A stretch of DNA of 51,526 bases, taken from Nitrospira sp. SB0662_bin_26. Its GTDB lineage: Bacteria; Nitrospirota; Nitrospiria; Nitrospirales; UBA8639. The first letter of the stretch is position 1; every line of letters begins with the position of its first letter. The position numbers and the translations under genes were made by a program. Positions 2,950-12,240 of the stretch are shown piece after piece. The notes beneath the pieces are model-generated. The model had not been told where the DNA came from. It searched no databases and saw nothing but the letters and a program-made list of their open reading frames with translations. Where the stretch lies: the NCBI GenBank assembly GCA_009840285.1, contig VXOF01000107.1, positions 1-51,526 on the forward strand, in the 5' to 3' direction.

Positions 2950-3879
2950 TCACCGGCCCTTCCCCAGGATTGCGGAAAACGCCGATTCCAGGTCCGGGTA
3001 TGTGAAGGTAAACCCCAATTGTTGCGCCATGAGGGGCGAGACTGACTGACCGTGTGTCAAGAGCGTCGACATTTCGCCCAATCCGATTTTAAGGGCCGAT
3101 GCCGGAACAGGAAGCCAGGACGGTCTTCCCAGTGCCCGCCCCAGTTGCCGGCAAAATTCTCTCATCGTGACCGGATGGGGAGCCGCCGCGTTGACCGCGC
3201 CGTTGTAAGAAGGCTGCCTAAGAATGGCCGCGATAAGCCGTCCCAGATCCTCGACGTGGATCCAACTCACGGGCTGAGTACCCTGGCCCACGGGACCGCC
3301 AAGAAAGAGTTTAAAGGGGAGAAGCATTTTTTGCAGGGCGCCGCCGTCTTTTCCCAACACCATACCGATTCTCAGGCACGTGGCCCGAATGCCGTAGTCC
3401 GTCGCCCGGAGGGCCTCGTGTTCCCATTCCACGCACAGGTCGGCCAAGAATCCGGTTCCCGGCCCTTGCCGTTCATCGACGTGGTCGGCCGGTTCGAGTC
3501 CATAAAACCCGATCCCCGATGCGTTGATCAGGACCTTCGGTCGCACGGGACCGGAGAGACGGGATAGGGCCATCACGAGCGTCCGCGTGGTCTCGATCCG
3601 GCTGGCACGAAGTACGGCCTTGCGTGATCTCGTCCACCGGCGTTCGGCAATCGGAGCCCCTGCAAGGTTGATGACCGCGTCCTGTTCCTGAAAGGGGTTG
3701 CCCGAGGTCTGTCCATTCAACGGATCCCATTTTCGAACGTGAACGTTCCCTTCGACAACGGCAGATGCCGCATGTGGGTTACGGGTCAGAATGGTCACCG
3801 TGTTTCCGCCGCAGGCAAGAACCGGCGCAATGTTCCTTCCTATAAATCCCGTCCCTCCGACGATGGCCACGTTCATCAT
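2950..3879 (-). CDS. TIGR01777 family epimerase-like protein (YfcH/SDR39U1 type)
   Basis: A 309-residue protein of the atypical extended SDR superfamily. The Rossmann fold opens with NVAIVGGTGFIGRNIA (NAD(P)-binding GxxGxxG), followed by NLAGAPIAERRWT, the family signature after strand 4, and a conserved C-terminal DUF1731-like region (SWLPVPASALKIGLGEMSTLLTHGQSVSP). The start at 3879 (ATGATGA) overlaps the stop of the upstream SUMF1 gene by 4 nt, which implies translational coupling; upstream in-frame starts would run deep into that gene. Family members (E. coli YfcH, human SDR39U1) have no firmly assigned substrate, so none is proposed. It is the last gene of the SUMF1 operon. Confidence 0.88.
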   Translation of the reverse strand: MMNVAIVGGTGFIGRNIAPVLACGGNTVTILTRNPHAASAVVEGNVHVRKWDPLNGQTSGNPFQEQDAVINLAGAPIAERRWTRSRKAVLRASRIETTRTLVMALSRLSGPVRPKVLINASGIGFYGLEPADHVDERQGPGTGFLADLCVEWEHEALRATDYGIRATCLRIGMVLGKDGGALQKMLLPFKLFLGGPVGQGTQPVSWIHVEDLGRLIAAILRQPSYNGAVNAAAPHPVTMREFCRQLGRALGRPSWLPVPASALKIGLGEMSTLLTHGQSVSPLMAQQLGFTFTYPDLESAFSAILGKGR

Positions 3880-4697
3880 TGACCTCGTTTCACCGGCCGG
3901 GGTGTCGCCGGAACGTCCATTGCACAACGGAATCCGGTCCCATGAGTTTTCAGGGCAAACCCTCCTTTCCCGCGGGCTGCCGTCCGAATGTCGGAGTCGA
4001 AGCTGTGCCACGACCCGCCGCGTATGACTTTGAGCAACCCGGTTTCAGGACCCTTGGGGTTTCGGTCCGGCGCAACCCGGTAATAATCTTTTGCGTACCA
4101 GTCCTGGACCCACTCTCGTGCGTTGCCGGACATGTCGTGCACGCCGTAGGGAGAGGCGCCATCGGGTAACGAGCCGACCGGGAGCAGCGTCCCCTTTTCC
4201 ACCCAATCACGATTGAAATTCACGTGCGGGGCTGAGGGGGCCGCGCTACCCCACGGATATTGTCGTCCATCGGTGCCCCTTGCGGCCTTTTCCCATTCGG
4301 CTTCCGTCGGCAACCGTTTGCCCACCCACTGGCAATAATCCGCGGCGTCGTGCCACGTGACCTGCACCACGGGTAAATTCCCGATGCCCTTCACGTCGAA
4401 CAGGGAGCCCGTGCCGTACACGTTGAACGGTTCCTGATGCCCCGTGGCTGCAATGAATCTGAGGTATTGGGCATTGGTGACTTCATATTGGTCGATCATG
4501 AAGGCCTTGAGATAAATCGTTCGACGAGGCCGCTCGTCGGCCCGTCCGTCTTCCGCCCCGCTTCCTCGAAGGAAACGGCCTTCCGCAATGGTGACCATGG
4601 AAACGGGGTCCTTCGCCGGAACGGGAGGCTCCGCGAAAGCGGAAACCTGCCCCAACAGGATGCACATGGTGAGTGTCGTCATCAAGATCACATTCAT
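3876..4697 (-). CDS. SUMF1/FGE-sulfatase-domain protein A, secreted
   Basis: A 273-residue protein with an N-terminal signal peptide (about residues 1-22, ending VSAFA) and a SUMF1 (formylglycine-generating-enzyme-like) domain filling the rest: FMIDQYEVTNAQYLRFI, WHDAADYCQWVGKRLPTEAEWE, DMSGNAREWVQDWY and VIRGGSWHSF ending in GTGFRCAM. The redox cysteine pair used by true formylglycine-generating enzymes in the segment after RGGS is absent (HSFDSDIRTAARG), so sulfatase maturation is unlikely. A structural or electron-transfer-accessory role like that proposed for NirV-type proteins is an alternative. The ATG at 4697 overlaps the preceding stop (ATGA), and its own stop overlaps the next start in the same way. 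Confidence 0.88.
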   Translation of the reverse strand: MNVILMTTLTMCILLGQVSAFAEPPVPAKDPVSMVTIAEGRFLRGSGAEDGRADERPRRTIYLKAFMIDQYEVTNAQYLRFIAATGHQEPFNVYGTGSLFDVKGIGNLPVVQVTWHDAADYCQWVGKRLPTEAEWEKAARGTDGRQYPWGSAAPSAPHVNFNRDWVEKGTLLPVGSLPDGASPYGVHDMSGNAREWVQDWYAKDYYRVAPDRNPKGPETGLLKVIRGGSWHSFDSDIRTAARGKGGFALKTHGTGFRCAMDVPATPRPVKRGQ

Positions 4698-5065
4698 GGT
4701 TTTTGCCTTCGACTCTTTTCTTTGATGCGCGTGGAAATTTCCCCGATGCGTGCGGTGAGTGAGGAGGCGGCACGCGTGTCGTTGTCCCGTGCGGCCTTGC
4801 GAGCATCGACCAACAGCAGCCGGGATGCATGCAAGTCCCGTTCGATCTGCGTCTGGATTGCCGGGGACGCCAGGGTGCCCCCGAGTGCGGCCCGATGGAA
4901 AGCTTCCCATGCTTCATTCACGTTCTTGTCGGCCAGGTAGAGCGATTCTTGCATAGGGCTTCGGGGATGAAAATGGGGCCCTGCGTGACCGGCCCACACT
5001 GGATCAATTCCCAAACTGATGCTCCATGCCATGAACATCATGGGCAAGTAGTAGAGGACTTTCAT
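4694..5065 (-). CDS. Small secreted helical protein of unknown function
   Basis: A 123-residue protein not recognised as a named family. Residues 1-25 are a signal peptide (MKVLYYLPMMFMAWSISLG, with cleavage likely after PVWA). The mature part of roughly 98 residues begins with a His-rich patch (GHAGPHFHP) and continues as predicted amphipathic helix with many Glu, Arg and Ala (EAWEAFHRAAL, IQTQIERDLHASRLLLVDARKAA). It sits between two SUMF1 genes and overlaps each by 4 nt (ATGA at both ends), so production is tightly coupled to them. A periplasmic partner of the SUMF1 proteins is a reasonable guess from position only. The His patch could bind metal; there is no cysteine. Confidence 0.75.
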   Translation of the reverse strand: MKVLYYLPMMFMAWSISLGIDPVWAGHAGPHFHPRSPMQESLYLADKNVNEAWEAFHRAALGGTLASPAIQTQIERDLHASRLLLVDARKAARDNDTRAASSLTARIGEISTRIKEKSRRQKP

Positions 5066-6069
5066 GATCCACCTCTCTTTGACTCTCTGTCATCTTGCAG
5101 GGGAAGCGCCTGCGAGAGCACTTCCCGTTCTATTTCCGGCGAGGCTGTTTTCGCACATCGAAAGCCCAGGCCCACTCCATAACTGTTGTTCAACGGATCA
5201 TTCCAGAACCGGTGGGTCGTGGTCACGGTCTGCTTGGCCGCGATCCATGAGCCCCCCCGGATCACTTTCTTGGCGCCGACCGTGAGGCGGTCCACGTAGG
5301 TTCCGGTTCCACCGAGCCACACGGCAGTCGAGGGACCGGAGGGATTTTCGGAAAACGGTGTTTGGGCATAGTAGGCCGGGTCATACCAATCGCTGACCCA
5401 TTCGAACACGTTGCCTGCCATGTGATGCAGGCCGTAAGGACTGGTACCGCCGCGCAACGAGTCCACGGGCATGGTGGCGTCATGTTGCTTCCCGTAATTC
5501 ACGTATCGGGCATCGAAGGAATTGCCCCAGGGGTACCGGAATCCGTCCGGGCCGCGGGCCGCGTTTTCCCATTCGGCCTCCGTGGGCAGGCGCTTGCCTT
5601 CCCATGCACAGAAGTCCTGGGCGTCGTACCAGTTCACACCGACCACGGGTTGGGTGGCACCGTTTAGTCGTGGATCATCCCAGTAGGCGGGCGCCGGATG
5701 TCCCGTCGCCTTCATGAACCGTTCGTACTTCACATTCGAGACCTCATAGGTATCGATGAAATAAGCACTCAAAGCCACCCAATGAGAAGGCCCCTCGTCA
5801 TGAAAAGCCTCTCTGGACCAGGGCATCGTCATTCTCCGTTGGTATGGCGTCTCCTCTATTTCCGATACGCCACTGGTCCACTTCTTGTCGATGCCGATGA
5901 CGGTAAGGTCGGATGGAATATACGTCATGTCCTCCGGGACCGCAGAAAGATCCTGTGCATGGATGGTCGAAAACAGGAGACTCCCGACGCCCAACACGAA
6001 TGCCAGCCACACCATCCCGATGCGGTCCAATGATTTCTTGGGGTTTTTCGAAGTCTTGATTGCGTTCAT
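5062..6069 (-). CDS. SUMF1/FGE-sulfatase-domain protein B, secreted
   Basis: A 335-residue protein. After a positively charged N-region (MNAIKTSKNPKKSLDR) comes a hydrophobic signal or anchor at about residues 18-38, then an unusual linker of about 65 residues (DLSAVPEDMTYIPSDL up to MTMPWSREAFHDEGP) before the SUMF1 core: YFIDTYEVSNVKYERFM, WYDAQDFCAWEGKRLPTEAEWE, HMAGNVFEWVSDWYDP, VIRGGSW and GVGLGFRCA. The core is very close to protein C (shared ATGHPAPAYWDDPRLN), indicating local duplication. The formylglycine-enzyme cysteine pair after RGGS is missing. Its ATG overlaps the stop of the upstream relic (ATGA), and it has a good site (GGGAGGAATCCG) that is repeated in front of the relic. Confidence 0.88.
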   Translation of the reverse strand: MNAIKTSKNPKKSLDRIGMVWLAFVLGVGSLLFSTIHAQDLSAVPEDMTYIPSDLTVIGIDKKWTSGVSEIEETPYQRRMTMPWSREAFHDEGPSHWVALSAYFIDTYEVSNVKYERFMKATGHPAPAYWDDPRLNGATQPVVGVNWYDAQDFCAWEGKRLPTEAEWENAARGPDGFRYPWGNSFDARYVNYGKQHDATMPVDSLRGGTSPYGLHHMAGNVFEWVSDWYDPAYYAQTPFSENPSGPSTAVWLGGTGTYVDRLTVGAKKVIRGGSWIAAKQTVTTTHRFWNDPLNNSYGVGLGFRCAKTASPEIEREVLSQALPLQDDRESKRGGS

Positions 6070-6370
6070 CGGATTCCTCCCGTTGGCGTAGGGGCAGGCC
6101 CCTCATCATGAAAAGCCTTCCATGACCAAGGCATCGACATTCTTTGTGTATACAGCGACTCTCGTGTTCCCGGGTCGACGCCGGGAGACTCTCTATCGAT
6201 GCCCATATCGGCAAGGCCATGAAAAATATACGCCATGTCCTTTGGCACGGATGAGAGATCCCGCGCATGGATGGTCAAATCAGGGGACCCCCAAGGCTCA
6301 ACGCGATGGCCAGCCATACCGGCCCCATGGTTTTCAAGAAGTGTTTTGGGATTGCTTCGAATGCGTTCAT
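6066..6370 (-). pseudogene. Relic of a SUMF1-protein N-terminus (tandem partial duplication)
   Basis: From ATG 6370, preceded by the same CGGGAGGAATCCG as gene B, the frame reads MNAFEAIPKHFLKTMGPVWLAIAL and stops after 31 residues. The -1/+2 shifted frame then continues with TIHARDLSSVPKDMAYI, then SLYTQRMSMPWSWKAFHDEGP, which aligns with the linker of gene B (TIHAQDLSAVPEDMTYI, TPYQRRMTMPWSREAFHDEGP). Directly after AFHDEGP the sequence runs into the ribosome binding site and start of gene B. The unit therefore looks like a duplication of the first ~300 bp of a B-type gene that lacks the SUMF1 core and has gained a frameshift. The 31-residue peptide might still be translated, and the overlapping frame reaches the ATGA junction with gene B. 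Confidence 0.8.
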
Positions 6371-6388
6371 CGGATTCCTCCCGTTTCT

Positions 6389-6417
6389 GGCTGGTGGGGG
6401 TATTCTCCCCACCAGCC
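6389..6417 (-). other. Intercistronic hairpin between SUMF1 gene C and the relic
   Basis: GGCTGGTGGGG (6389-6399) pairs perfectly with CCCCACCAGCC (6407-6417) around a 7-nt loop. It lies 9 nt downstream of the stop of SUMF1 gene C on the minus strand. No T-run follows, so it is more likely an mRNA-stabilising or processing hairpin than an intrinsic terminator. It could set the ratio of the promoter-proximal C protein to the distal genes. Confidence 0.6.
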
Positions 6418-6425
6418 AAGTCACG

Positions 6426-7373
6426 TTACATCTTGATTTGTTTCATGATGATGTCACGCGTTTGTTTGTATTCCACGTTGTTGGGATCGCCTTTGATAGC
6501 CTGGTCGATCGATTCCAACGCATCATTCCATTGCTCCTTGCCCATGCTGATGAGGGCGTGCATGAAATCGTATTTCACCACGTCTCCGGCGTGGGTGCCT
6601 GCCGACAGGGCGCACCGGAACCCAAGTCCCACCCCGTAGGAGTTATTCTCCGGCTGATTCCAGAAGCGATGGCTGGTGTGCAGGGACGTTTGAGGCGCCA
6701 GCCAGGAGCCGCCTTTCAGGACCTTGACCGGACCCTGGTTGGCAAAGTCGTAGCCGTCGTCCGGCCCTTGGGGATTGTAAGCCTCGCTCATCCGGAAATA
6801 GTTCGGATCATACCAATCACTCACCCATTCAAAGACGTTTCCGGCCATGTTGTACACGCCAAACCCACTCACGCCGTCAGGGTAGGAGTCTACGGGCATG
6901 GTCTTCCCCACGTTTTGACCATAGTTCGCTTTGGTGGCGTCGATGGTGTGTCCCCAGGGGAAATGGGTCCCATCCGGCCCCTTGGCCGCGTGTTCCCACT
7001 CTGCTTCCGTAGGCAGCCGTTTGCCGGTCCATTCACAGTAGGCATTGGCATCGAACCAGTTCACGCCGACGACGGGTTGGTCGGGTTTGTTCAGGCGTGG
7101 GTCGTCCCAGTAGGCCGGTGCCGGATGGTCGGTGGCTTTCATGAACTCCCGATAGTTACCGTTCGACACCTCATATTTGTCGATGTAATACCCGTCCAGC
7201 ACGACCTGGTGGAGCATTTCATCACTGTGATCCTTGCTGCCCATGGTGAACTCACCTTTTGGGATCAGGACCATGTCCGTGGTGTTTGCGGCCAGGGCCG
7301 CAGCCCAAGGACTGAAAATCAAGGTCAACGCCATGAACAATCCCGTGGTTGGTGAAAAAATACGCTTGTGCAT
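6426..7373 (-). CDS. SUMF1/FGE-sulfatase-domain protein C with TPR-like tail, secreted
   Basis: A 315-residue protein. A signal peptide spans about residues 1-29 (MHKRIFSPTTGLFMALTLI up to AALA). The SUMF1 core covers about residues 32-262: MVLIPKGEFTMGS, YYIDKYEVSNGNYREFM, WFDANAYCEWTGKRLPTEAEWE, MAGNVFEWVSDWYDP, VLKGGSW and GVGLGFRCAL. As in the two paralogues, the catalytic cysteines of true formylglycine-generating enzymes are replaced (LAPQTSLHTSHRF). A C-terminal extension of about 50 residues (YDFMHALISMGKEQWNDALESI) has the spacing of one TPR unit, absent from A and B. The start at 7373 has AAAAAGGAGATC 6 nt upstream. It is the most intact SUMF1 protein and lies nearest the proposed promoter. 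NirV-like accessory proteins are the nearest functional analogy. Confidence 0.9.
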   Translation of the reverse strand: MHKRIFSPTTGLFMALTLIFSPWAAALAANTTDMVLIPKGEFTMGSKDHSDEMLHQVVLDGYYIDKYEVSNGNYREFMKATDHPAPAYWDDPRLNKPDQPVVGVNWFDANAYCEWTGKRLPTEAEWEHAAKGPDGTHFPWGHTIDATKANYGQNVGKTMPVDSYPDGVSGFGVYNMAGNVFEWVSDWYDPNYFRMSEAYNPQGPDDGYDFANQGPVKVLKGGSWLAPQTSLHTSHRFWNQPENNSYGVGLGFRCALSAGTHAGDVVKYDFMHALISMGKEQWNDALESIDQAIKGDPNNVEYKQTRDIIMKQIKM

Positions 7374-7422: not shown

Positions 7423-7707
7423 TCACCCGTGCAGTGGCTTCCTGACCAACGCTTCGACGCCCGTCCACCGTCTGCGACTCAAGAGTTTGAGAGCCGGAAG
7501 CTCCGCTCCCATCCGGTGCTTGAGGATAAGCGAATCCACGATATCTCCGCATTGCACGCACCGCCGTGCCCATCGGCGCATTTGCCCGGTATCGTCGAAC
7601 AGATCGAACAGGCCTTCCCTGAGCATCAGCCCGCCGCACCTCTTGCACGTGTGCATGTCTTGCGCTGTGACCAACCCCCGGCTTTGGATGTTTTTTGAGG
7701 TCGCCAT
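7423..7707 (-). CDS. Small zinc-ribbon protein
   Basis: A 94-residue cytoplasmic protein with two CxxC knuckles (HTCKRCGGLM at about 20-29 and RRCVQCGDIVD at about 49-59) separated by an acidic segment (LFDLFDDTGQM). This is a typical single zinc-ribbon geometry, and the C-terminal third is basic (LLSRRRWTGVEALVRKPLHG). There is no enzyme motif; a nucleic-acid- or protein-binding regulator is possible. The start at 7707 has AGAGGTG upstream. It is the first gene after the putative sigma-54 promoter, 49 nt ahead of SUMF1 gene C, and so heads the SUMF1 operon. I do not recognise a named family. Confidence 0.75.
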   Translation of the reverse strand: MATSKNIQSRGLVTAQDMHTCKRCGGLMLREGLFDLFDDTGQMRRWARRCVQCGDIVDSLILKHRMGAELPALKLLSRRRWTGVEALVRKPLHG

Positions 7708-7801: not shown

Positions 7802-7818
7802 ATCAAATTGCGTGCCAA
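7802..7818 (-). promoter_or_regulatory. Sigma-54-like promoter of the SUMF1 operon
   Basis: On the minus strand TTGGCACG, 4 nt, TTGAT matches the -24 element of the sigma-54 consensus (YTGGCACG-N4-TTGCW) fully and the -12 element except for C to A at the most conserved -12 position. GG and GA keep the canonical 10-nt spacing. The implied transcription start near 7791 leaves a leader of about 84 nt before the zinc-ribbon gene. An activator gene of the sigma-54 class lies 0.9 kb away, and a dyad sits about 130 bp upstream. Confidence 0.5.
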
Positions 7819-7898
7819 TTTTTTCGATGAGAATTTTCATCGCTATTTCATAGAGTTAGATAAATTGTTGCCAAGATAATCAGCCGGCCTGTTTGTCG

Positions 7899-7942
7899 AT
7901 GAGACAATAAAGTGTCTCATTTATTATATGTGAGACACTTTA
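7899..7942. promoter_or_regulatory. TGTCTCA/TGAGACA operator cluster (putative upstream activating site)
   Basis: TAAAGTGTCTCA (7908-7919) and TGAGACACTTTA (7931-7942) form a perfect 12-bp inverted repeat with an 11-nt AT-rich centre. A third half-site, ATGAGACA (7899-7906), is inverted relative to TGTCTCAT (7913-7920). The rest of the 317-bp gap between the zinc-ribbon gene and the response-regulator gene (7708-8024) holds no frame worth calling. Location about 110-150 bp upstream of the putative sigma-54 start site is typical for NtrC-family activator sites. On RNA level the dyad could also act as a hairpin terminator for neither or both flanks, but no T-run follows. Confidence 0.6.
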
Positions 7943-8024
7943 GGAGGAACGGGCTGGAGTTAGAGGGGGCGCCCCGTAGGGCACAACGATCATTGTTTCC
8001 TACCTGATCGTGGATCTAATCGGG

Positions 8025-8441
8025 CTAAGGCAGGTTCGCGATCCGGATCCAAAAATATTCCAGTGCTTGGACCACGGCGATAAAAGCTTCGAAGTTGGCC
8101 GGTTTGGTCAGGTAACAGTTGGCGTGAAGGTCATACGCCTTGGCGACGTCTTCCGGATTTTGCGAAGAGCTGAGGACGATCACCGGCATCCGTTTCAGCA
8201 TCTCATGGCGTTTCACGAACTGTAATACTTCAAAACCACTTTTTTGGGGGAGATTCAAATCAAGGACCATCAGGTGGGGGAAGCCGTCCTGCATCCTCGT
8301 TTCCAAAAACCGTGTGGCCTCAAGTCCATCACGGACAAAATGCAGGGTGGGCTCGATGAAGGACGTATTGAGTGCTTCCTTGATCAGGCGAACGTCACCC
8401 GGATTGTCTTCGACGATCAGGATAACGGGAGATTTCTTCAT
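8025..8441 (-). CDS. Stand-alone response regulator, Rcp1-like
   Basis: A 138-residue single receiver domain. The acidic pocket is in LIVEDNPGD, the phospho-acceptor Asp in LMVLDLNLPQKSG (about residue 60), the switch residues in VIVLSSS and the conserved Lys in CYLTKPANF. The VEDNPGDVRL opening and the wording around the Asp are typical of Rcp1-type regulators paired with phytochrome-like kinases of the ASHDLQEPLR class, such as the kinase encoded 2 kb away. There is no output domain, so it acts by protein contact or as a phosphate sink. The start at 8441 is chosen because the receiver begins directly there; the longer frame from a TTG at 8513 would include the putative sigma-54 promoter. 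Confidence 0.88.
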   Translation of the reverse strand: MKKSPVILIVEDNPGDVRLIKEALNTSFIEPTLHFVRDGLEATRFLETRMQDGFPHLMVLDLNLPQKSGFEVLQFVKRHEMLKRMPVIVLSSSQNPEDVAKAYDLHANCYLTKPANFEAFIAVVQALEYFWIRIANLP

Positions 8442-8496
8442 TGAGGATCCACAGGGGGTGACTTCGGTGTTTTCGTTCCCTGATTCTTCAGGGATA

Positions 8497-8513
8497 TTCA
8501 AAGGTTGTGCCAA
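8497..8513 (-). promoter_or_regulatory. Sigma-54-like promoter of the Rcp1-like regulator gene
   Basis: On the minus strand TTGGCACA, 4 nt, TTGAA repeats the architecture seen at 7802-7818: a near-perfect -24 box and a -12 box with A in place of the usual C. The predicted start near 8486 gives a 45-nt leader to the ATG at 8441. Having the same variant twice within 0.7 kb argues against chance, although each site alone is imperfect. Confidence 0.45.
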
Positions 8514-8589
8514 AGGGCAGGTGGAAGCGATCAGTCTTGCAGATTCAACAAGTTATGCGTGTATAGCGTTCGTAGAACGTTCGTTGGCT

Positions 8590-8620
8590 GTCTTATTGTA
8601 GTGTCTCAGGGATGTCTTAT
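8590..8620. promoter_or_regulatory. Direct TGTCTTA/TGTCTCA repeats (putative upstream activating sites)
   Basis: Three copies of the heptamer in the same orientation: TGTCTTA at 8590-8596, TGTCTCA at 8603-8609 and TGTCTTA at 8614-8620. They are about 105-135 bp upstream of the predicted start of the Rcp1-like gene, the same distance as the dyad of the SUMF1 promoter. They lie 25 bp beyond the 3' end of the sigma-54 activator gene. Confidence 0.5.
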
Positions 8621-8644: not shown

Positions 8645-10381
8645 TCATGAAAGGTCGCGTTTGGAAATATCCAAATCATCCAACCAGCGATAGAACGTGG
8701 CGCGACTGATGCCGAGCAGTTGAGCGGCTTTGGCTCGATTCCCGTTGGCCTTTTGCAGGGCGTCCAAGAGACGTTCCCGGTCCTTGACGGACGTGGTCGG
8801 TTTTGAGACGGGACTCACGGGTTCGGCTGATTCGAGCAATTCCGGAGGAAAATGCCGGGGTTGGATGGTGTCCCCTTCGCATTGGAGCACGGCATATTCA
8901 ATCACACTTTTCAATTCGCGAATGTTCCCCGGCCATGGATACCGGGTCAGGTGACCCACGGCATCGGCGCTGATATCTTGTACAAACAGTTTCTCCATCG
9001 CCTGGCGGCATTGGCCGACGAACGCCCAAATCAACAAGGGAAGATCCTCCTGGCGTTCACGGAGCGGAGGCAAGTGAATGCGTCCCACTCGAATGCGGTA
9101 CAGCAGGTCAGCCCGGAAGGTACGTTGGTCTACCTGTTCCTGTAAGTCGTGATGCGTGGCGCAGATAATGCGGACGTCCACTTTTCTCGGTTGGGATTCA
9201 CCCAGCCGGGTAATTTCTTTTTCCTGGAGCACCCTGAGCAGACTCGTTTGGACGGGCGCCGGCATATCGCCGATTTCGTCCAGGAAAATCGTCCCTCCTT
9301 GAGCGGATTCAAAAAATCCACGGTGGTCGCTGTTGGCTCCGGTAAACGCGCCTTTCTTGTGGCCGAACAATTGACTGCCCAGCAGGGATTCCGTGAGGCC
9401 GGCACAATTTACCGCCAGGAAGGGCTTGTCCTTTCGCGGGCTGGAATTGTGCAGGGCCCGGGCCACGAGTTCTTTTCCTGTTCCGGTTTCACCTTCGATG
9501 ATGACCGTCGACTCGACCTGGGCGAGGTTGCGAATCTGCCGGTACACGTCCTGCATGGGTTGGCACTTTCCGATGAGATCGTGAAATGAGGACTTGTCCT
9601 CCAGTTGTTTGCGGAGGGTGTTAATCTCCGTGACGTCATAGAGAAAGAACATTTTCGACCGAGCGTCACGCGGGTCATCGTGGATGTCGATCTCCAACGA
9701 ACGAGCGGCGTGGCCCGGCGGCTTGAAATGGACGATAAATTTTTCCCGTTCGTGCTGCTGCATAAGCTGTTCCAGACCATGGACGTCATGGTCGGGGAAC
9801 CCAACGGCTTTCTGCCAGGGTTGGTCTTCAGGAATGGGTTCGTTTTTCCCCAATAATCGAAGAGCGGACACGCTCATATGCAGAATCCGGCCTTTGGGGT
9901 CGATCAAAATCGTCCCGATGTGCAGTTGATTCAGGATGGAATGGAGATCTTCCGCGCTTTTCCGGAGCCGGGAATTCGCGGTTTCCAATTCGGCCTGGAT
10001 CCGTTTCCTCTCGACGGCGTAGTCAATGGCTCGAAGAAGGACGTGCCCGTCCACCTCGCCTTTGAGCAGATAATCCTGCGCGCCTTCTCGAACGGCCTGG
10101 ATGGCCGTTTCCCGGTCGTTCAGGCCGGTCAGGAGGACTTGCGGGAGTGAGGGATAGCCTTCCGCGAGTTTACGAAACGTTTCCAACCCGTGACTGTCGG
10201 GCAAGGAAAGGTCGACCAGAGCGAGGTCCACGCGGTTGGCTTGCAAACACTCATACGCCTTCCGGAAGGATTCGGCGGTGATGATGGTGAAGGTACGCCC
10301 TTGTATGTCGCGAAAGAGTTCCCGGATCAAGCGGGCATCGCCGGGATTGTCTTCCACCAGGAGAATGGTCGTCGTGTTCAT
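8645..10381 (-). CDS. Sigma-54-dependent response regulator (receiver-PAS-AAA+-Fis)
   Basis: A 578-residue NtrC-class activator. The receiver spans residues 1-125 (LLVEDNPGD, Asp in [10 protein letters not shown]), with a PAS-like domain at about 150-265. The AAA+ domain at about 280-505 has Walker A GETGTGKE (about 300), the sigma-54 contact loop GAFTGA (about 346), Walker [12 protein letters not shown] and arginine fingers in [10 protein letters not shown] Fis-type helix-turn-helix sits at about 540-575 ([20 protein letters not shown]). It remodels sigma-54 polymerase after phosphorylation, presumably by the kinase encoded just upstream. ATG 10381 is chosen because the receiver begins there. 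A TTG at 10420 overlaps the kinase stop (TTGA) and would add 13 residues encoded largely by a palindromic repeat; it cannot be excluded. Confidence 0.92.
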
Positions 10382-10383
10382 GT

Positions 10384-10406
10384 GCCTGCCCTGAGCTTGT
10401 CGAAGG
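10384..10406. repeat. Short palindromic-family repeat between kinase and activator genes
   Basis: The sequence GCCCTGAGCTTGTCGAAGG belongs to the CCTGAGC...GTCGAAGG family that also occurs at 21511, 21739, 31541 and 41150. Here it sits between the kinase stop and the activator ATG and has displaced any strong ribosome binding site. A TTG-initiated reading would translate it (LRQAQGRH). Confidence 0.65.
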
Positions 10407-10416
10407 GTCCGGTCCT

Positions 10417-12240
10417 TCAAGAAAGCATAGCGGATTCCGAGGAATCGGCCTTTGACGGTATGGACTTCACGACCTCTTGAGCGGTCGTCAGGGTGAAATA
10501 GAAGGTCGAGCCTTGACCGGGTTCGGATGCCACCCAGATGTGCCCGCCGTATTTTCCCACGATTCTCTTACAGATGGCCAGGCCGATCCCCGTGCCAGGG
10601 TATTCGCTTTGACCATGCAGGCGTTGAAAGATCGCGAAGATGCGTTCGAGTTGATCGCCCGGCATCCCGACCCCGTTGTCGCGGACGGAGAATTCCCATC
10701 CATCCGGGAGCGCCTTGACCCCCACGTGAATTTTTGGCGGGGCGTCGCCTTGGAACTTCAGCGCGTTGCCGATCAGGTTTTGGAAGATTTGGGTCAGGTG
10801 CGTCGGGCTGGCCCGGACAATGGGGAGCGGATCATGAGTCACTTCGGCGTGACGTTCCAGGACCGATGCGGAGAGATTCTGCATGGCCTGTTGAAACACA
10901 AGTTCACAGTCGGTTTCTTCAAAGGACTGACGCTCCGCCCCGACCCGCGAGTATTCCAGCAGGTCGCGAATGAGGCGTTGCATACGGGTGGCGCCATCCA
11001 CGGCGTAACCGATGAATTCATCGGCGTCCTGATCCAGCTTGCCCCGGTAGCGTTTCCCCAATAACTGGGTATAGCTCGAGACCATGCGGAGCGGTTCCTG
11101 CAGGTCGTGGGACGCCACGTAGGCAAACTGCTGAAGCTCGGCGTTGGATTGGGCCAATTCCCGCGTCTTGTTCGCCAATTCGGTTTCCTGGTGTTTGCGC
11201 TGCGTAATGTCCGTTTGAATCCCGATAAAATGCGTCAGCTTTCCCTGTTGATCCTTCACCGGCGCGATGTAAAGTTCGTTCCAAAACGGGCTGCCGTCCT
11301 TGCGATAATTGCGGAGTTCCGCTTTGGCCTCGGTGCCCTGCCGGACCGCCTGGCGAATGGCGTCGAGGCCGGGTTGCTGATGGTCCGTCCCCTGGAGGAA
11401 CCGGCAATTTTGACCGAGCACTTCCTCCGCGGCGTAGCCCGTGATTTTTTCAAACGCGGCGTTGCAATAGACCGTGGGCATGTCCGGCTGACGGGCGTCG
11501 GCAATGAGAATGCCGTTGGTGGCCGAATTGATCGAGCGGTCGCGCAAGGCACGCTCTTCCTCGGCTTTTTTGCGTTGCTCGATTTCCCGTTCGAGTCTGC
11601 GGCTGGTGGACACAACCTGTCGGGCCAGGACGATGCTCAGGAAAATGACCAGCAATCCGATAAACGGTTCGCTTTTCATGAGATCCACGACGTTTTGACG
11701 GGAACGGGCGCTGAATAGTTTGAACACGGTGTCGGCGTTGCGTTGAAGGTCATAGTGGAGTTGATTGAGCAGGGAAAACGATTCCGACGAGGTAAAGTGA
11801 GCAGGGTCTTCCCCCAGCAGGGTTTCGGTTTGGGAAAAAAACCGTTCGAGCAGGGAGCGTTGTTGCTCCAGAAGTTCCCGTATCCGGACGGTCGGGGCTG
11901 CGGGGATGGAGCGCCGTTCGTCGGTGTACAGGTTCACGATCACTTCTCCTCCGTTTTGCAAGGCATCGACGGAGTGCAACAATGCCTGCTCCATGGGCTG
12001 GAAATCCGTTTGAATCCCATGGGATGCCAACAGCAGTTGACTGAGGTGGCGTTGAATCATCATGCGTTGGCGCCCCGCCACGTCCATCACCACCATGTCA
12101 AGCTCGTGCGTTCCCACCGCGCTATGGGTAAAGGCCAGGATGGCACCCAACGCCAGGATGAAGATGACCACCATGGCGAGCAGGCGTTGCCCGATGGTCA
12201 AAGGAAACGTATTCCCCGGTTCGGACGATGCATTCATCAT
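10417..12240 (-). CDS. Membrane histidine kinase with PilJ/NarX-type sensor and LOV-like PAS
   Basis: A 607-residue sensor kinase. TM1 is about 19-41. A periplasmic PilJ/NarX-type four-helix domain follows, containing the box VAGRQRMMIQRHLSQLL (compare the nitrate-binding P-box region of NarX), with TM2 at about 188-206. A PAS domain at about 235-345 carries GQNCRFLQGTD, the flavin-adduct motif of LOV photoreceptors including the Cys. HisKA has the phospho-acceptor in ASHDLQEPLR (His about 376, phytochrome-kinase type), and HATPase has NLIGNALKF, DNGVGM and GTGIGLAICKRI. A strong AGGAGGG site precedes ATG 12240. It probably phosphorylates the sigma-54 activator downstream and perhaps the Rcp1-like regulator. 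The nitrite channel is divergent from it. Ligand and light response are inference; some PAS domains keep the motif without photochemistry. Confidence 0.9.
   Translation of the reverse strand: MMNASSEPGNTFPLTIGQRLLAMVVIFILALGAILAFTHSAVGTHELDMVVMDVAGRQRMMIQRHLSQLLLASHGIQTDFQPMEQALLHSVDALQNGGEVIVNLYTDERRSIPAAPTVRIRELLEQQRSLLERFFSQTETLLGEDPAHFTSSESFSLLNQLHYDLQRNADTVFKLFSARSRQNVVDLMKSEPFIGLLVIFLSIVLARQVVSTSRRLEREIEQRKKAEEERALRDRSINSATNGILIADARQPDMPTVYCNAAFEKITGYAAEEVLGQNCRFLQGTDHQQPGLDAIRQAVRQGTEAKAELRNYRKDGSPFWNELYIAPVKDQQGKLTHFIGIQTDITQRKHQETELANKTRELAQSNAELQQFAYVASHDLQEPLRMVSSYTQLLGKRYRGKLDQDADEFIGYAVDGATRMQRLIRDLLEYSRVGAERQSFEETDCELVFQQAMQNLSASVLERHAEVTHDPLPIVRASPTHLTQIFQNLIGNALKFQGDAPPKIHVGVKALPDGWEFSVRDNGVGMPGDQLERIFAIFQRLHGQSEYPGTGIGLAICKRIVGKYGGHIWVASEPGQGSTFYFTLTTAQEVVKSIPSKADSSESAMLS

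Follow-up and report, generated by a model that had tools for sequence, protein, structure and literature searches.

A predicted two-component sigma-54 regulon joining an Rcp1-like response regulator and a zinc-ribbon/SUMF1 operon in Nitrospira

The closest described relatives of the locus analysed here are the NtrC-type regulons (NtrC, ZraR, GlrR/QseF, AtoC and the PEP-CTERM response regulator), which it resembles in having a REC-AAA-Fis activator with a GAFTGA loop encoded beside a kinase, an enhancer approximately 100 bp upstream of -24/-12 promoters and very few targets. Sigma-54 enhancers are usually located 70–150 bp upstream (PMC3844500), and an activator site composed of three half-sites has been demonstrated by EMSA for DVU2956 (PMC4641369). 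Promoters lacking the usual C of the -12 element are also on record, since sigma-54 is bound at STM0649.S (TTGA) and pspA (TTGT) of Salmonella (PMC3844500), and a non-C -12 element is therefore unusual, not impossible.

Within the window, i.e., the whole analysed stretch of 51,526 nucleotides from Nitrospira sp. SB0662_bin_26, a block of genes very probably forms a narrow, autolinked two-component sigma-54 regulon, in which a kinase and an activator would drive an Rcp1-like gene and a zinc-ribbon/SUMF1 operon. The original prediction had paired this activator with the SUMF1 operon and the Rcp1-like regulator, and sequence comparison supports the pairing through the co-occurrence of dyad and activator, the movement of the dyad with the SUMF1 operon and the distant loci, all the comparative tests that could be run being in its favour. 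One refinement is that the SUMF1 operon begins with the zinc-ribbon ORF.

Gene block and SUMF1 proteins

All genes of the block lie on the minus strand. A PAS sensor histidine kinase found by domain search (10417–12240) is the likely cognate sensor, as its gene overlaps by 4 bases that of a REC-PAS-AAA(sigma-54)-Fis activator (8645–10420, probable ATG start at 10381, also from domain search) and the two are adjacent in related loci. The block further comprises an Rcp1-like single-domain response regulator (8025–8441; domain search and related loci), a small two-CxxC, zinc-ribbon-like ORF, the first gene of the operon (7423–7707; sequence and related loci), SUMF1a, an exported SUMF1/FGE-fold protein (6426–7373; domain and structure-sequence matches), SUMF1b (5062–6069; domain search and related loci) and SUMF1c (3876–4910; domain search and related loci). 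The GAFTGA loop and the Fis helix-turn-helix foreseen for a sigma-54 activator of this block were both found, with matches to PF00158 (E 8e-70) and PF02954 (E 3e-10), and the genome encodes rpoN (PF04552, E 1.4e-59) and eight strong sigma-54 activator domains. The activator scores below the curated cut-offs for NtrC (TIGR01818, 371.6 vs 558.6 bits), the PEP-CTERM regulator (TIGR02915, 351.1 vs 502.6), GlrR (NF011695, 326.8 vs 763) and ZraR (NF007689, 314.8 vs 760). Residues ~50–145 of the kinase weakly match a PilJ-like sensor region and include an AGRQRM motif, a combination that resembles nitrate/nitrite-sensing P-box kinases; at E 0.0016, under the Pfam cut-off, a PilJ-like identity of this sensor domain was not accepted.

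SUMF1a carries an FGE-sulfatase domain (PF03781, E 5e-56), matches FGE structures (E ~1e-34) and by reading has an apparent signal peptide. FGE possesses a catalytic cysteine pair; in SUMF1a this pair is absent after GGS(Y/W), where GGSWLAPQTSLH aligns to GGSYMSHRSYCY of an FGE chain, and with no cysteine in the catalytic segment, formylglycine formation by SUMF1a is, judging from the alignment, unlikely. Our guess is that the protein serves at the cell surface, in a structural or binding capacity. The segment of P0006 and P0007 that matches the FGE catalytic site has, by reading, no cysteines, and by sequence the single operon includes three FGE-fold proteins (6426–7373, 5062–6069 and 3876–4910) devoid of the FGE catalytic cysteines. 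Just upstream of SUMF1b there is a SUMF1b-like gene remnant (6066–6419, minus strand; 52% identity to SUMF1b residues 35–95), which suggests tandem duplication and decay within the operon, and a short stretch resembling it is also found in G005 (L129).

Promoters and enhancers

Both -24/-12 promoters named in the original prediction are present on the minus strand, TTGGCACGCAATTTGAT on the SUMF1 side (7802–7818) and TTGGCACAACCTTTGAA on the Rcp1 side (8497–8513), each identified by pattern match and conserved in relatives. They contain the -24 TTGGCAC and the -12 TTG, with the usual C after TTG replaced, mostly by A: the predicted A is found at both promoters and is kept in 19 of 26 promoter copies, the others having T (4), G (2) or C (1). 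When the genome (2.2 Mb, 98.8% complete) was searched with patterns, TTGGCACNNNNNTTGMW (TTGGCAC-N5-TTG[AC][AT]) gave two matches, both at these promoters, and its reversed-pattern control gave none. The looser pattern TGGCAY-N5-TTGMW retrieved five TTGC sites, three of which are near other activators and four of which lie outside ORFs of at least 110 codons, the fifth overlapping an opposite-strand ORF of 134 codons. Four other genomic TTGA-type matches (L167, L168, L172 and L175) were regarded as background because they are ORF-internal and have no heptamer within 350 bp upstream. Since the other intergenic sites of the same type are TTGC, the -12 substitution characterises this regulon, not the sigma-54 of the organism in general.

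Upstream of the two promoters, all six of the predicted TGTCTCA-type sites were recovered, as a dyad plus third half-site on one side and three direct copies on the other. The SUMF1-operon enhancer (7900–7937, minus strand) reads TGTCTCA-N11-TGAGACA-N6-TGTCTCA on the coding strand, with heptamers of mixed orientation at 7900–7906, 7913–7919 and 7931–7937; its minus-strand TAAAGTGTCTCA...TGAGACACTTTA is a perfect 12-bp inverted repeat, to which a third half-site is added. The enhancer of the Rcp1-like gene (8589–8619, minus strand) reads TAAGACA-N4-TGAGACA-N6-TAAGACA on the coding strand, with direct heptamers TGTCTTA, TGTCTCA and TGTCTTA at 8589–8595, 8602–8608 and 8613–8619, the outer two bearing a one-base change. 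Heptamer centres lie 86, 99 and 117 bp (SUMF1 side) and 80, 93 and 104 bp (Rcp1 side) upstream of the -24 TGG. Half-sites are arranged differently at one promoter than at the other, and their arrangement on the Rcp1 side also varies among species.

Both enhancers are supported by rarity and conservation. Each 132-bp region holds three heptamers vs 0.035–0.048 expected, a number that 5000 dinucleotide shuffles never produced, and TGTCTYA-N2-30-TGTCTYA occurs genome-wide only at these two promoters (control 0), which are also the only ones that were found to combine TTGGCAC-N5-TTGA with TGTCTCA sites. This site (TGAGACA) is undescribed in the literature searched.

Alignment of copies tentatively places an IHF-like element in each enhancer-promoter interval, TAACTTGTTGAAT on the Rcp1 side (8543–8555, minus strand) and TAACTCTATGAAAT on the SUMF1 side (7845–7858, minus strand). 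The TAAC-N3/4-TGAA(A/T)T common to both spacers resembles the IHF consensus YAANNNNTTGATW on the opposite strand; three HU/IHF-family genes are present in the genome, and a role of the element as a DNA bend site is plausible.

Conservation, movement and distant homologues

Ten further genomes of the genus have orthologues of the activator (79–92% identity), as do two of a sister genus (73–75%), and the block of kinase, activator, Rcp1-like gene, zinc-ribbon ORF and SUMF1 genes recurs in these 10 + 2 genomes with gene order largely kept. Next to the orthologues, each of the two promoters is again found with its heptamers, as the original prediction demanded. In an alignment of 13 SUMF1-side and 13 Rcp1-side copies, most of them from one genus, heptamer columns are 95% (SUMF1 side) and 87% (Rcp1 side) identical and promoter columns 95% and 96%, whereas the remaining columns reach 67% and 65%; three random 7-bp windows matched the heptamer conservation in 1 (SUMF1 side) and 27 (Rcp1 side) of 20000 draws. 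The most constant SUMF1-side unit is TRAGACR-N6-YGTCTYA at 99/86 bp from the -24 element; with a tolerance of 1 bp, 10 of the 13 copies are listed with both half-sites at these distances. In the other three (G011, G001 and G024) one half-site is off by a base, the distance being unchanged in G011 and G024 and shifted by ~3 bp in G001. On the Rcp1 side, the window's genus has direct repeats 10–13 bp apart with variable spacing and the sister genus an inverted N6 dyad, which is thus found at both of its promoters and ties them to one binding protein.

The elements are also lost and relocated together. In three members of the genus that are 90–99% complete (G002, G007 and G009), activator (presence being a match at E <= 1e-100), SUMF1a and dyad are absent together; in G010 dyad and promoter are retained by a SUMF1 operon located ~11 kb away from the activator, and in G006, where the zinc-ribbon ORF is gone, the dyad-promoter module directly precedes SUMF1a. 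With profile R1 of the module, most genomes of the two genera that carry the activator give a single strong match. Second copies occur in G008 (G008:C69, L180:801-952), before a signal-peptide ORF running off the contig, and in G011 (G011:C42, L232:2656-2796), before a signal-peptide ORF that is followed by an autotransporter/cadherin ORF; the SUMF1 module copy of G008 is split by a contig end. As it moves with the SUMF1 operon and is duplicated, the enhancer-promoter module behaves, as far as these comparisons go, as a unit able to recruit new targets, with secreted proteins apparently recruited into the regulon in G008 and G011.

Elsewhere in the order, in further genera and families, activators of ~47–53% identity occur, most of which share the recognition-helix core SR(A/S)T(F/L)YR (SRATFYRWL in the window's activator, typically SRATFYRRL in the distant homologues), from which the helices of six other activators of the window's own genome differ. 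Heptamer clusters lie in the spacer 3' of the activator gene, or one gene on, in most of the 17 loci read, the exceptions being G030, with no heptamer cluster, and G045, with scattered single sites. The matched promoters are mostly TTGA (L185, L186, L190, L191, L195 and L233–L235), that of L194 (G030) being TTGG. The best match of profile R1 falls within 2 kb of an activator homologue in G016, G026, G029, G059 and G062; in other distant genomes best matches are weak and located elsewhere. Downstream genes common at the distant loci encode a further response regulator (REC-LuxR or single receiver) and DUF481 proteins, accompanied by ORFs that by inspection are MscL-like, and the thread common to the loci is one response regulator placed beside a second one, its probable target.

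In another family of the order (L181–L192, from G059, G062, G069, G076, G046, G072, G075, G056, G093, G079, G082 and G073), the genes after the homologous activator are mostly those for a REC-LuxR-type regulator, DUF481 and an MscL-like protein, and the spacer contains TGAGACA clusters. L184 has a pair of these clusters as well as an additional short match to the activator C terminus. None of the 80 loci from an activator search of named genomes (homologues of ~35–52% identity) contained the strict N6 dyad, so the dyad site appears confined to this order. Dyad-pattern matches that some distant genomes (e.g., G052, G083, G088 and G089) have outside any activator locus examined were deemed chance, as the reversed-pattern control gives similar numbers.

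Proposed circuit, its alternatives and known systems

In the circuit that we propose, the membrane sensor kinase (10417–12240) would phosphorylate the adjacent REC-PAS-AAA-Fis activator, whose Fis domains would bind TGAGACA half-sites 80–117 bp upstream of the -24 element at two promoters, possibly assisted by DNA bending at the IHF-like element. The GAFTGA loops would then remodel the sigma-54 holoenzyme waiting at the two TTGGCAC-N5-TTGA promoters, one leading to the second, single-domain response regulator (Rcp1-like) and the other to the zinc-ribbon/SUMF1 operon with its exported FGE-fold proteins, the transcription starts and the operon extent being predicted. That the arrangement is kept in relatives and follows moved target genes argues for a real, otherwise classical control circuit. 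Points that weigh against it are the unequal half-site layouts, the missing C at -12 and the homologous loci with few or no heptamers (G030 and G045).

With eight strong sigma-54 activator domains in the genome, and with the contact between activator and heptamers being a prediction, the promoters could be sigma-54-dependent while the heptamers are read by another activator or some other DNA-binding protein, a repressor included, and the neighbouring activator acts elsewhere. We consider this unlikely, as the heptamers adjoin this activator and its distant homologues and vanish with it, and the six other activators of the genome have different recognition helices. A perfect 12-bp inverted repeat between two co-directional genes could in principle also serve mainly as RNA structure, terminating the Rcp1-like transcript, instead of as an operator; however, the arms of the repeat at 7900–7937 are not G+C-rich, conservation is limited to the heptamers, in direct as well as inverted order, and the repeat stands at a constant distance from the promoter and has relocated together with it, leaving the Rcp1-like gene behind. 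The terminator was rejected on these grounds, and we regard it as highly improbable. Least credible of all, to the point of being almost negligible, are chance matches or shared ancestry without function: one genus does supply most of the 13 copies, but no shuffle reached three heptamers, conservation is confined to heptamers and promoter vs 65–67% elsewhere, and the elements are found again in other genera and in the duplicated modules.

It is possible, if rather doubtful, that the lack of C at -12 acts as a code specific to this regulon: the weakened promoters would respond only to their own locally bound activator and be insulated from the cell's other sigma-54 activators, recognition helix, heptamer and -12 A having been retained together in several genera. 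Weaker basal binding and promoter insulation through the -12 substitution are what we infer here. As a sigma-54 regulon in which a -12 substitution has persisted naturally and in repeated instances, the system allows the question of whether promoters are insulated from one another's sigma-54 activators to be put to the test.

Judged by sequence, the system belongs with the classical enhancer-dependent sigma-54 regulons; its activator family, its site and its targets are new, and one conserved promoter trait is unusual. An undescribed activator family thereby gains a candidate DNA site (TGAGACA), two probable targets in the genome analysed and a circuit that is conserved, in which a response regulator probably switches on a second response regulator plus exported FGE-fold proteins; since the module has moved and been duplicated, the regulon should be traceable by sequence in uncultured relatives.

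Unlike the NtrC-type regulons, the system has an activator that stays under the curated cut-offs of all named NCBIfam regulators and in which a PAS domain separates REC from AAA, the half-site TGAGACA, and an Rcp1-like receiver and SUMF1 genes as its putative targets. With the sigma-54 activators of Desulfovibrio vulgaris, DVU2956 among them (PMC4641369), it shares a three-half-site site, co-localisation of activator gene and promoter, order-level conservation and a small regulon, mostly one to four operons in that species, but the organisms and motifs are different and the likeness noted here is one of arrangement. Like STM0649.S and pspA of Salmonella (PMC3844500), where sigma-54 binding was observed, the promoters recognised here by sequence have no C at -12; those are isolated promoters, whereas in the present case the substitution is kept regulon-wide and across genera.
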